Assembly: GCF_002803075.1 (NCBI RefSeq)
Contig: NZ_NNBK01000004.1
Coordinates: 62,001 to 126,000 of the forward strand
Origin: Streptomyces sp. CB01373
GTDB lineage: Bacteria; Actinomycetota; Actinomycetes; Streptomycetales; Streptomycetaceae
DNA length: 64,000 nucleotides
Direction: 5' to 3'
Shown: one piece after another, positions 20,538-25,054 of the stretch
Layout: each line of letters begins with the position of its first letter
How positions within the stretch are numbered: the first letter of the stretch is position 1
The notes under the pieces: generated by a model
Told to the model about the DNA's origin: nothing
The model's database searches: none
What the model saw: the letters and a program-made list of their open reading frames with translations, nothing else
Program-made: the position numbers and the translations under genes

Positions 20538-21080
20538 ATGTCGTCGTGGACGCGGGGATCACTCGCTGCGCTCGCGGCCTCGGCCCTGCTCTTCGCCGGG
20601 CCGGCGGGCTGTGGACGGAAGGCTGGGCACGGGCAGGGGGACGAGAGGCCGCCCGAGCCCGTGGGCAAGCTGCTCGACCACACCGACGAGGAGGGCCGGC
20701 GCTACCGCGAGGTGGACCGGAAGACCGCTCCCGAGGTCCGTGTCGAGGTGCGCCCGGGCTCCGGCGGCGACTGGAACGTACGGCTGGCCGTGCGCCGCTT
20801 CCACTTCTCCCCGGCCGGCACGCCGGCCCGCGCGACCTCCGGGCGCGGCCTCGCCCAACTGCTGGTGGACGGCCGGCTCGTCGTCCGCCTGCGCGCCCCG
20901 GAGTACCGCCTCTCCGGCGGGCTCGTGCCCCACGGCACCCATCACGTCACCGTCCGCCTCCTCGCCGACGACGGCACGGTCTGGGCGGTGGCCGGCGACC
21001 CGGTCCAGTCCACGGCCGACATCACGGCCGCGCCGCAGGACCAGGGCGGGTCGTCCCCGGCCGTGTCCGCGAGGCCGTAG
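20538..21080 (+). CDS. Putative lipoprotein
   Basis: 180 residues from ATG 20538. N terminus MSSWTRGSLAALAASALLF ends in a lipobox AGPAGC, so Cys26 or so should be lipidated and the protein held on the outer membrane face. The mature part is acidic then beta-rich (DWNVRLAVRRFHFSPAG; GLVPHGTHHVTVRLLADDG), like a small immunoglobulin-type or copper-binding fold, but no metal motif is complete. Function not recognised. Confidence 0.75.
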   Translation: MSSWTRGSLAALAASALLFAGPAGCGRKAGHGQGDERPPEPVGKLLDHTDEEGRRYREVDRKTAPEVRVEVRPGSGGDWNVRLAVRRFHFSPAGTPARATSGRGLAQLLVDGRLVVRLRAPEYRLSGGLVPHGTHHVTVRLLADDGTVWAVAGDPVQSTADITAAPQDQGGSSPAVSARP

Positions 21081-21136
21081 CGGGGCTGCCGGGAGGCGCG
21101 CTTCACCCGCCCGCCGGGGGAAGGCATGATGAAGCC

Positions 21137-21763
21137 GTGTCCCACCCCGCCCCGCTTCGCCGCACGCCCGTCCAGCGGCGCAGTGCCGAACGGCTGACCA
21201 GGATCCTCGACGCCTGCGCCGACCTCCTCGACGAGGTCGGCTACGACGCGCTGACCACGCGGGCCGTCGCGGCGCGCGCCGGTGTGCCCATCGGCTCGGT
21301 CTACCGCTTCTTCGGCAACAAGCGGGCGATGGCGGACGCGCTGGCCCAGCGCAACCTCGACCGGTACACCGAGCGCGTCGCCGGGCGGCTGAAGAAGGCA
21401 CGGAAGGCGGGGAAGGCGGGGAACGGCGGATGGAGTGCCGCCATGGACACCGTCCTCGACGAGTACCTGGCCATGAAGCGGACCGCCCCCGGGTTCTCCC
21501 TCGTCGACTTCGGCAACCAGATCCCCGTCGGCGTCCGCCGCGCCGAACCCAACCACCGCGTCGCCGACCGGCTCACCGAGCTTCTGGCCGGCCACCTGGG
21601 CCGCGTGCCGGACGACGACCTCCGCCGCACCTTCCTGATCGCCGTCGAGACCGCCGACACCCTGGTCCAACTCGCCTTCCGCGTCGACGCGCAGGGCGAC
21701 GAGCGGATCATCGAGGAGATGCGGCGGATGCTGCGCGCCCACCTGGCGCGGGCGCTGGACTGA
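21137..21763 (+). CDS. TetR-family transcriptional regulator
   Basis: 208 residues from GTG 21137. DNA-binding domain about 16-62 (ILDACADLLDEVGYDALTTRAVAARAGVPIGSVYRFFGNKRAM). The ligand domain has a basic KKARKAGKAGKAGNGG insertion. Downstream genes encode a secreted protein and sortase, 177 bp away; whether it controls them or the upstream lipoprotein cannot be told. Confidence 0.88.
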   Translation: MSHPAPLRRTPVQRRSAERLTRILDACADLLDEVGYDALTTRAVAARAGVPIGSVYRFFGNKRAMADALAQRNLDRYTERVAGRLKKARKAGKAGNGGWSAAMDTVLDEYLAMKRTAPGFSLVDFGNQIPVGVRRAEPNHRVADRLTELLAGHLGRVPDDDLRRTFLIAVETADTLVQLAFRVDAQGDERIIEEMRRMLRAHLARALD

Positions 21764-21887
21764 GGCCGTTTCCCCCATGCCGTGAGGTGTCCGGCGGGGA
21801 GGGGCGGAACACGGTTGCTCCGGCCGGGCGAAAGCTGACGGCGCGTCGGGTGCGGGTCGCCTCGTGACGCGAGCGCATATGAAAGAC

Positions 21888-21927
21888 AGTCAGTCGAAAG
21901 AGCGATTTGTATGAAAATCGTCTGACT
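21888..21927 (+). promoter_or_regulatory. Leader hairpin before the sortase-substrate gene
   Basis: Nested inverted repeats: outer AGTCAG (21888-21893)/CTGACT (21922-21927) and inner CGATTT (21903-21908)/AAATCG (21915-21920). They end just before the GGAGGA ribosome site (21929-21934). Could be a regulator site or an mRNA structure near the start. Confidence 0.4.
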
Positions 21928-21940
21928 CGGAGGAACGCAC

Positions 21941-22651
21941 ATGCCCACCCTGACAATCCCACGCACCTTCGGCTCCCGTGCCGTCGCCGTCGGTCTGACG
22001 GCCCTGACCGCGGCCGGTGCCACGTGGCTGGTGGCGCCGTCCGCCATGGCCCAGGGGGAAGCCGGCGACATCAAGATCCACAGGGTGGGCGTGCCCTTCG
22101 GCGTCTCGAAGGACGACCCCGTCGCCTGCCGGTTCTACCTGGACGCCGTCAACTTCGACGTCCTGCCCAACGTGACCTACACCATCCACGCGCAGCCACC
22201 GCTGCCCAACAGTGCCACCGTCACCGGCGCCGTCGCCCTGGGCGCCGGCGCCGGCCACACCGAGCCGCTGGGGCTCGCCGACGGGCAGTACAAGCTCTCC
22301 TGGACCATCGACGGTACCTCCAAGGAGAAGATCTTCCGCGTCAACTGCCGCGGTGACAACGGCCGGCGCGAAGGGGCGCAGGGTCCCGGCCGCCAGATCG
22401 AGGACCAGGGCCGCGGCCGCGACGACCGGGGCCGCGGTCACGAGGATCACGGGCGCGGCAACGAGGTGTCGGGCCCGGTCCGCGACGACCGCGGCGGCCC
22501 ACGGGGCGGTGTCCAGGCGGGCGGCGGCGGCCTCGCCTCCTCGGTCGCGGCGTTCTCGCCGGTGACCGGGGCCGCGGCCGTGGGGCTGGTCGTGGTCAGT
22601 GGGGTCGTGTACACGCGGCTGGTCCGCCGGCGCCCGCATGGCGCCGCGTAG
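21941..22651 (+). CDS. Secreted C-terminally anchored protein, probable class F sortase substrate
   Basis: 236 residues; ATG 21941 after GGAGGA. Signal peptide about 1-37, cleaved near SAMAQG. Mature domain about 40-140 is beta-rich with two cysteines. A repeated Arg/Asp/Gly stretch (GRGRDDRGRGHEDHGRGN) follows. The C terminus has SPVTG at 206-210, a hydrophobic helix (AAAVGLVVVSGVVYTRL) and RRRPHG, the layout of a sortase signal with an atypical pentapeptide. The next gene, overlapping by 14 nt, is a class F sortase. The domain is not one I recognise. Confidence 0.8.
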   Translation: MPTLTIPRTFGSRAVAVGLTALTAAGATWLVAPSAMAQGEAGDIKIHRVGVPFGVSKDDPVACRFYLDAVNFDVLPNVTYTIHAQPPLPNSATVTGAVALGAGAGHTEPLGLADGQYKLSWTIDGTSKEKIFRVNCRGDNGRREGAQGPGRQIEDQGRGRDDRGRGHEDHGRGNEVSGPVRDDRGGPRGGVQAGGGGLASSVAAFSPVTGAAAVGLVVVSGVVYTRLVRRRPHGAA

Positions 22652-23453
22652 GCGCAGACGCAGGCCCTGGTACCGGACCCGCGCCTACCGCCTGGCCAGG
22701 ACGACTGTGCTCGCGGTCGTCCTGGTCACGGCCGGGAACCGGTGCGGTGGACAGCACGACGGCACCGCGCCGGAGCGAGCCGCAGGGCCGGGCGCGGTGG
22801 CCCCGGCCCACCCGGGCCCTTCCGGCGCGGACGGCGACGGCGCGGCCGGCGACGGGGCGAACGGCGGCAGGGCCGGCGGCAGCGGCACACACCGCGGCGG
22901 TGGCGGCACGGACGGAGCGAACGGCGACGGCCCGGCCCGCGGCAAGTCCCCCTCGCCACGGCCCGGTTCTCCCTCCCCGCGCCGGCCCTCGCCGCTGCCC
23001 CGCTCTCCCGCGACCACCCTGCGCATCCCCTCCCTCGGCGTCGACGCGCCGATCATCCGGGTCGGCCTCGACGGCGACCGGGAGCTGAAGACGCCACCGG
23101 TCGACAAGCCCAAGCTCGTCGGCTGGTACGACGGCGGCCCCACACCCGGGGAGCCCGGCACGGCGGTCGCGGTCGGGCACCGCGACACCAGGACCGGCGC
23201 AGCCGTTTTCGCCGGACTCGGCCAGCTCGGTCCGGGCCACCGCATCGAGGTCCGGCGCCAGGACGGCCGCACCGCCGTCTACACCGTCGACAAGGTACGG
23301 GTCTTCGACAAGGCCCGCTTCCCGGACAAGGAGGTGTACGCCACGTCCCGCCGCCCCGAACTCCGCGTGATCACCTGCGGCGGCCTCTACACCCACAGAG
23401 CCGGCTACTCCAGCAACGTCGTCGTCTTCGCCCACCTGACGTCGACGACCTGA
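22638..23453 (+). CDS. Class F sortase
   Basis: 271 residues; ATG 22638 lies inside the end of the preceding gene (14-nt overlap). N-terminal basic stretch and membrane helix (LARTTVLAVVLVTAG, about 17-33), Gly/Pro-rich linker to about 125, then the sortase barrel: TLRIPSLGVDAPII, catalytic His in VAVGHRDTRTG, catalytic Cys in LRVITCGG, and the closing strand YSSNVVVFAHL. Class F sortases are common in actinobacteria, and their substrates are poorly known. A hairpin follows its stop. Confidence 0.9.
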   Translation: MAPRRRRRRPWYRTRAYRLARTTVLAVVLVTAGNRCGGQHDGTAPERAAGPGAVAPAHPGPSGADGDGAAGDGANGGRAGGSGTHRGGGGTDGANGDGPARGKSPSPRPGSPSPRRPSPLPRSPATTLRIPSLGVDAPIIRVGLDGDRELKTPPVDKPKLVGWYDGGPTPGEPGTAVAVGHRDTRTGAAVFAGLGQLGPGHRIEVRRQDGRTAVYTVDKVRVFDKARFPDKEVYATSRRPELRVITCGGLYTHRAGYSSNVVVFAHLTSTT

Positions 23454-23466
23454 CACCGCGCGGCGC

Positions 23467-23499
23467 GGCGGGCGGGTGGCCCACGACCGGCCGCCCGCC
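23467..23499 (+). terminator. Hairpin after the sortase gene
   Basis: GGCGGGCGG (23467-23475) and CCGCCCGCC (23491-23499) form a perfect 9-bp stem with a 15-nt loop, 14 nt beyond the sortase stop. Confidence 0.6.
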
Positions 23500-23677
23500 C
23501 TTGAACATGATCGTCCGCCGTCTCGTCTGGCGGACGCCGGCTTCCGATCCTGCCCGGTCTCTTCCCCCCGGCGCGCACCGTCCGTTAACTTCCGTGACTC
23601 ATACGCCCCGTACGACCCGCACGAGGCGTTCGACCCGCGGAGCCTCAGTGCTCTGGTGAGTCCCGGGGGAATGCCTC

Positions 23678-25054
23678 ATGACACGCGCCATCTCTCTGCA
23701 CGACGTGAGCAAGACCTACGCCAAGGGCGTCCGCGTGGTGGACCGCCTCTCCCTCGACATCGCGCCCGGCGAGTTCCTGGTGCTGCTCGGGCCGTCCGGC
23801 TGCGGGAAGTCCACCGTGCTCAGGATGATCGCCGGACTGGAGGAGATCACCGAGGGGCAGTTGCTGCTCGACGGCGAGTACGGCAACGAACTGCCGCCCT
23901 CCGGACGGGACATGGCGATGGTCTTCCAGAACTTCGCGCTCTATCCGAACATGACCAGCCGGGACAACATCGGCTTCCCGCTGCGCATCGAGTCGCCCGG
24001 CACGGACCCCGCCCGCCGTGTCGACGCCACCGCCCGGATGCTGGGCATCGAGGACCTCATGGACCGCTTCCCCAGCCAGCTCTCCGGCGGCGAACGCCAG
24101 CGCGTCGCCATGGGCCGCGCGATCTCCCGGCACCCCTCCGCCTTCCTGATGGACGAGCCGCTGTCCAACCTCGACGCCAAGCTCCGCAACCACCTGCGCG
24201 CCGAGATATCCAAGCTGACCCGGGAGTTGGGCGTCACCACGGTCTACGTCACCCACGACCAGTCCGAGGCGATGTCCCTGGGCGACCGGGTCGCCGTCCT
24301 GCGCGGCGGCGTCCTCCAGCAGGTGGACACCCCGCGCGCGGTCTACGCCCTGCCCCGCAACGTCTTCGTGGCCGCCTTCATCGGCACCCCGCGCATCAAC
24401 CTGCTGCGCGGCCTGATCCGCGCCCCGCTCGACGGCGCCATGACCATCAGCCTGGGCAAGCAGTTCCTGCGCCTGCCCGAACCCCTGTCCCTGGACCACC
24501 AGTTGCTGCGCGTGCAGCAGGGCCGGGAGGTGATCGTGGGGCTGCGTTCGGAGGCCGTCCGGATCGCCCCCAAGTTCTCGGCCTCCTCCCGGCGACCGGG
24601 AGTCCCCGCGCCCGCCGCCCGACCCGGGGAGGTGGCGATCACCGGGCTGGTGGAGCACATGGAGTTCCAGGGCCACGAGGTCCTCGTCCACTTCAACACC
24701 GGCTCCCGCCCCGCCGTCGTACCGGACCTGGAGGCCCCGCGTCCCACCCGGCGCCCGACCCGGCGGCGCCGGCGCGAGGGCACGGTCCTGAACCGGCTGC
24801 GGGGCCGGGCGGGCGGCCTGCGCGCGGGCCCCGTGGTGGTGCTGGACCACCCCTCAGGCCCCGAGCCGGATCCGGTCGCCGCGCCCGACCCGCGCCTGCC
24901 CGGCGACCTCGTCGTGCGGACCACGCCGGACATCGAACTGCGGCACGGCATGCAGGTGCCGCTCCTGGTCGACCTCGCCCGCCTGTTCGTCTTCGACCAG
25001 CGCGGCGAGCGCATCTGCCCGGCCCCGGACCGCCTGCCCGACCTGGAGGAGTGA
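23678..25054 (+). CDS. Orphan ABC transporter ATPase of the MalK/UgpC/MsiK type
   Basis: 458 residues; ATG 23678 after GGGGGA. Walker A GPSGCGKST (about 41-49), Q-loop VFQNFALYPNMT, signature LSGGERQRVAMGRAI, Walker B AFLMDEPLSNLD, H-loop YVTHDQSEAM. A TOBE/OB regulatory domain follows, but it is interrupted by an Arg-rich insertion near 350-385 (PTRRPTRRRRREG). Typical members are about 360-380 residues, so this one is long. No permease or binding-protein gene is adjacent, so it may energise several importers, as MsiK does. Confidence 0.9.
   Translation: MTRAISLHDVSKTYAKGVRVVDRLSLDIAPGEFLVLLGPSGCGKSTVLRMIAGLEEITEGQLLLDGEYGNELPPSGRDMAMVFQNFALYPNMTSRDNIGFPLRIESPGTDPARRVDATARMLGIEDLMDRFPSQLSGGERQRVAMGRAISRHPSAFLMDEPLSNLDAKLRNHLRAEISKLTRELGVTTVYVTHDQSEAMSLGDRVAVLRGGVLQQVDTPRAVYALPRNVFVAAFIGTPRINLLRGLIRAPLDGAMTISLGKQFLRLPEPLSLDHQLLRVQQGREVIVGLRSEAVRIAPKFSASSRRPGVPAPAARPGEVAITGLVEHMEFQGHEVLVHFNTGSRPAVVPDLEAPRPTRRPTRRRRREGTVLNRLRGRAGGLRAGPVVVLDHPSGPEPDPVAAPDPRLPGDLVVRTTPDIELRHGMQVPLLVDLARLFVFDQRGERICPAPDRLPDLEE

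Follow-up and report, generated by a model that had tools for sequence, protein, structure and literature searches.

A class F sortase gene in Streptomyces overlaps the gene of a probable substrate with a proposed glycine-rich sorting signal

The 64,000-nucleotide stretch of DNA analyzed here (the window; Streptomyces sp. CB01373, contig NZ_NNBK01000004.1, positions 62,001 to 126,000) carries two overlapping genes, one for a class F sortase and one for its candidate substrate, a secreted protein with a glycine-rich motif ahead of its C-terminal membrane helix. All features of the pair lie on the forward (+) strand and are numbered from the first nucleotide of the window. The putative substrate gene (21941..22651), defined by its open reading frame and translation and by 29 orthologues, encodes a 236-residue secreted precursor anchored by its C-terminal tail. 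The sortase gene (22638..23453; 271 residues) encodes an N-terminal membrane anchor and a Pro/Gly/Ser-rich linker ahead of the catalytic domain. The two genes share 14 nucleotides (22638..22651): the sortase starts at an ATG (22638) within the 3' end of the substrate gene, whose stop codon, TAG, occupies 22649-22651. An earlier note on this DNA had described a sortase overlapping a neighboring secreted gene, and both the genes and their overlap are borne out. The orthologue set comprises 29 sequences from genomes of the same genus, with 53-75% identity to the window protein (n = 30 with the window). A possible sortase start codon is found at −14 in 28/30 loci, the remaining two having theirs at −11, and this conserved start/stop overlap suggests that translation of the two genes is coupled. 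As a class F sortase lies directly downstream in all 29 of the orthologous loci fetched, the pairing of substrate and sortase is far from chance.

The sortase scored 206.2 bits against the NCBIfam class F model NF033748 (cut-off 166) and 87.3 bits against Pfam Sortase PF04203, and fell far below the cut-offs of the class D, E and GN sortase models listed. The catalytic domain (23010..23447) was modeled by AlphaFold2 with a predicted local distance difference test score (pLDDT) over 90, and the model displays the sortase beta-barrel fold, matching solved sortases with Z up to 17.0; a direct phmmer search of the sortase against the PDB returned no match, although the profile and fold searches did match sortases. 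H181 and C247 (numbered from ATG 22638) are present, and the His and Cys are each conserved in 100/101 class F sortases. As judged from the sequence alignment only, R243 sits four residues before the Cys at a position where Arg is kept in 92/101 class F sortases, and N260 occupies the usual catalytic Arg position, where Asn is found in 97/101. Together, H181, R243, C247 and N260 span 23178-23417 of the window. By model and fold, the window sortase is a member of class F, with predicted transpeptidase activity.

The precursor opens with a putative signal peptide (residues 1-37, MPTLTIPRTFGSRAVAVGLTALTAAGATWLVAPSAMA; 21941..22051), probably cleaved after AMA, and continues into an Ig/FN3-like beta-sandwich domain (residues 43-136; 22067..22348; pLDDT about 90) containing two Cys (63 and 136) that are invariant in the orthologue alignment. 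The best solved match to the domain model is the S-layer protein 7ptp (Z = 9.5 over 94 residues), and Foldseek returned no significant relative of the domain (best E 5e-3); the match reflects the common Ig/FN3-like arrangement only, and no function is inferred from the fold. A disordered, charged stalk of variable length among orthologues (residues 140-186; 22358..22498; pLDDT about 50 or less) leads to the proposed class F sorting motif, P-R-G-G-V-Q-A-G-G-G-G-L-A (residues 187-199; 22499..22537), nominated by its conservation, its fit to the consensus of class F neighbors and its alignment to the NCBIfam model NF058571. Within it, GVQAG occupies 22508-22522, with cleavage predicted between A193 and G194 (GVQA/G). 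There follow an SPVTG string (residues 206-210; 22556..22570) that the orthologue columns reveal to be unconserved, a membrane helix (residues 212-229; 22574..22627) recognized from the AlphaFold2 model and its hydrophobicity, and a basic stop-transfer RRR (residues 229-231; 22625..22633), of which R229 and R230 are kept in 30/30 sequences and R231 in 28/30. The protein ends in ...AFSPVTGAAAVGLVVVSGVVYTRLVRRRPHGAA; the stretch spanning the motif reads GGPRGGVQAGGGGLASS, and that spanning SPVTG reads AAFSPVTGAAA.

The earlier note had taken the C-terminal SPVTG-(hydrophobic)-RRR arrangement as a non-canonical sorting signal, an LPxTG-like string with Ser for Leu that the sortase would cleave between T209 and G210. 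The string and tail are present in the translation as described: SPVTG has the xPxTG form, with the helix and RRR behind it, its Pro207 is invariant (30/30), and a few close orthologues keep SPLTG. However, the Thr is kept in 8/30 sequences and the Gly in 10/30, although all of these loci keep the sortase; a lack of SPVTG conservation in orthologues is the outcome that the note had named beforehand as refuting its reading. P-x-G-G-V-x-A-G-G-G-G (residues 187-197), 16 residues upstream of SPVTG, is invariant in 30/30 except at its x positions. Because the Thr and Gly of SPVTG decay while PxGGVxAGGGG stays invariant, SPVTG is not the sorting motif, and it was rejected as a candidate on its decay in orthologues that all keep the sortase. 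SPVTG also abuts the predicted helix at 212-229, where a membrane-bound enzyme would have little space to act, and strings of the form [LISNPTAVM]PxT[GAS] are at chance level in the 89 class F neighbors surveyed below (10 observed against a shuffle mean of 5.7 and a maximum of 14). Cleavage at SPVTG is thus extremely unlikely. No conserved [LSN]PxTG pentapeptide of the LPXTG type was found before the helix in the 30 sequences. What survives of the original proposal is the pairing of a sortase with a substrate that has a non-canonical signal: the neighbor is very probably the substrate of this class F sortase, but its motif is not SPVTG.

Window residues 187-226 align to NF058571 GVDTG_CTERM (GVDTG sorting domain) at model positions 2-42 of 44, an alignment that covers the motif, helix and basic tail, all conserved in orthologues. 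By sequence comparison, the window tail is a GVDTG-like variant that is not counted as an NF058571 member, and its family is a GVxAG variant below the cut-off of that model. The window's genome encodes five class F sortases, and 5/5, the window pair included, have a neighbor with a GVDTG-type tail; the strong full-length NF058571 matches in this genome adjoin class F sortases. Among the tails and sortases listed from 148 actinomycete genomes, a class F sortase is found within 2.5 kb of at least 80 of the 95 full-length GVDTG tails, compared with 1 of the 55 tails whose match is confined to the helix and basic end (Fisher p about 1e-25). The latter, which have the anchor in common but lack the motif, provide an internal control. 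The count of 80 is a lower bound, as tails in L072, L075 and L077 were scored as not near, yet a sortase adjoins them in the fetched loci. Furthermore, all 37 genomes with a GVDTG tail above the cut-off have a class F sortase, against 84/148 overall (p about 1e-11).

These associations bear on the idea that a housekeeping class E sortase of the same cell processes the protein as its substrate, while the class F neighbor acts on something else. The window's genome does have further sortase genes beyond its five class F genes, and in Actinoplanes missouriensis only SrtE gave a phenotype among the sortases (PMC13251363). Against this stand the tracking of class F sortases by GVDTG-type tails, in both location and genome occurrence, and the absence from the window tail of the LAXTG motif that class E sortases use (PMC5148588); we consider the class E explanation very unlikely. 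Elsewhere in the window's genome, locus L133 (C4:435096-441542) contains a class F sortase with a divergently transcribed partner bearing a GVRGG variant of the motif, and the related loci L137 and L144 each carry both a GVHAG protein and a GVRGG protein.

The converse survey started from the enzymes. At 101 class F loci, spread over many genera, the nearest protein with a signal peptide, a helix and a basic tail was picked, blind to the motif. A qualifying neighbor was present in 89/101 loci, with 73 of the 89 upstream on the same strand, and a GVxTG-like motif was found in 81 of these 89 (shuffle mean 19.6, maximum 29), whereas none contained L[PA]xT[GA] (LPxTG/LAxTG). The comparison of C termini beside class F sortases, which the note had suggested as a check, yielded a shared glycine-rich signal, with SPVTG-type strings at chance level. 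Some of the eight neighbors without a motif match are wrong picks or slightly off-pattern (e.g. APDTG, GADTG, HPPTG). The consensus in about 100 loci is P-x-G-[GA]-[VPA]-x-[TA]-G-x-G, which the window motif (PRGGVQAGGGGLA) fits throughout; in the aligned motif Pro is found at −3 in 71/87 and Gly at −1 in 66/87, both positions lying outside the pattern used for motif finding. Loci from Amycolatopsis, Micromonospora, Demequina, Janibacter, Kibdelosporangium and others also show this signal, often in the form APxTG or GVxTG. Motif subtype tracks the sortase tree, clearly at P3 (17 changes versus 32 shuffled, minimum 27) and weakly for the Thr/Ala split at P1 (15 changes versus 21.3 shuffled, minimum 15). 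As subtypes follow sortase clades, a cell with several class F sortases may pair each of them with a partner of its own.

A further explanation is that the glycine-rich motif remains uncut and that the protein, anchored in the membrane, acts as a partner of the sortase or regulates it. Cleavage is a prediction only, and the neighbors are mostly encoded beside the sortase gene and often overlap it, as would also suit such a role. However, the layout is that of a sorting signal: the motif has a set form and a set spacing from the basic tail, it lies outside the membrane, and a disordered stalk precedes it. The distance from motif to basic tail is 27-37 residues in most class F neighbors, and the spacing of PxGGVxAGGGG is close to this. 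Moreover, the neighbors have the motif in common even though their displayed parts vary in both length and sequence. We therefore regard an uncut motif as very unlikely. Two groups of loci in the survey differ in arrangement. In a sortase clade comprising L172, L174, L179, L183, L196, L200 and L201, the partner lies on the opposite strand, with a GVAAGGGG-type motif and no gene overlap. In L156 and L162, predicted proteins of about 470-530 residues, on the opposite strand from the class F sortase, have GGVAAGFGG ahead of a helix and KRIIPKR; these large proteins may be substrates or unrelated membrane proteins.

The explanation that we favor, and hold to be very likely, is that the two genes form a dedicated class F sortase-substrate pair for surface display, using a glycine-rich signal of the GVxAG/GVxTG type with predicted cleavage between A193 and G194. 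It rests on conservation, adjacency, anatomy and fold, which are what was observed. In the proposed mechanism, pieced together from sequence, structure prediction and analogy, the signal peptide would direct export of the precursor, and the C-terminal helix and RRR would keep it in the membrane. The class F sortase would then recognize P-x-G-G-V-x-A-G-G-G-G just outside the membrane, and its active-site Cys would cleave between A193 and G194. By analogy with characterized sortases, the Ig-like domain on its disordered stalk would be transferred to an amino group of a cell-wall precursor. SPVTG would play no part in anchoring. GVxAG would be one lineage's version of a wider class F signal, P-x-G-[G/A]-[V/P/A]-x-[T/A]-G-x-G, with subtypes following sortase clades.

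Several observations weigh against the existence of such a pair. The window tail scores 17.5 bits on NF058571, below the curated 29-bit cut-off, and its P1 residue is Ala where Thr is usual. The catalytic residues of class F depart from His-Cys-Arg, with Asn at the Arg position in the 97/101 noted above, and, under the filters used, a qualifying neighbor is missing from about one in ten of the class F loci sampled. In A. missouriensis, deletion of all four class F genes produced no phenotype (PMC13251363). Finally, the first class F enzyme studied, from Cutibacterium acnes, is reported to recognize LPXTG (as cited in PMC13257024), and class F specificity is for that reason not uniform.

More broadly, class F may consist of parallel dedicated display systems working side by side, each sortase with its own neighboring substrate and its own variant of PxG[GA][VPA]x[TA]GxG, the signal having no Leu at P4 and in many cases no Pro at P3, and Asn replacing Arg in the active site; we advance this generalization tentatively, as plausible but somewhat short of probable. 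No sortase class is less well understood than class F, and few papers in the literature searched name it. The tail is already a named domain in NCBIfam (NF058571), and its link to class F sortases may already stand in the description of that model; no description tying the GVDTG tail to class F sortases was found in the literature searched. The motif predicts the substrate of most class F sortases from sequence alone. If cleavage takes place as predicted, sortase recognition would extend to signals that have neither the Leu nor, in their commonest form, the Pro found in most earlier sortase signals, and mutually orthogonal ligation enzymes may be possible. Just upstream of the pair lie a gene for a small secreted lipoprotein-like protein (20538-21080) and then one for a TetR-type regulator (about 21131-21763); a promoter and terminator scan of 21700-23700 returned nothing, which is uninformative for a high-GC actinomycete.

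Among known systems, A. missouriensis has four class F sortases; the neighbors AMIS_11010 and AMIS_36440, which possess a signal peptide, a helix and a basic tail, were set aside in a 2026 study because none of the known pentapeptides was recognized in them (PMC13251363). In the genome that we take to be A. missouriensis, four class F reading frames have starts that allow the published lengths of 273, 184, 240 and 247 residues, and a sortase lies near 55 kb, as expected for AMIS_500. The protein upstream of SrtF1 contains GPATGGGG and ends ARGPATGGGGTAPGP..., that upstream of SrtF4 contains GGVDAGGG and ends PKGGVDAGGGSGAED..., and that before SrtF3 contains GGVPSGDGG and ends APGGVPSGDGGLAG...; no such motif-bearing neighbor was found for SrtF2. 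GPATGGGG and GGVDAGGG belong to the tails of the two published neighbors reported without a sortase motif, so the substrates predicted from the motif include both set-aside proteins. The window pair resembles these systems in that its sortase passes the class F model and SrtF1, SrtF3 and SrtF4 have the same kind of neighbor. It resembles NF058571 in the position of its motif before the helix and basic tail, members of that family also lying beside class F sortases, but differs in having Ala at P1 and Gln/His at P2 rather than Thr and Asp, and in its score below the cut-off. C. acnes SrtF is unlike it in its reported recognition of LPXTG (PMC13257024), no such motif being present in the window tail. 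The Streptomyces class E/LAXTG system (SrtE1, SrtE2 and the long chaplins) shares the logic of signal peptide, motif, helix and basic tail, and the class E fold is similar to that of the window sortase (5cuw, Z = 15.8 over 130 residues, root-mean-square deviation 2.1); it differs in belonging to another sortase class, whereas the window motif has no Leu at P4 and its partner gene adjoins that of the enzyme.
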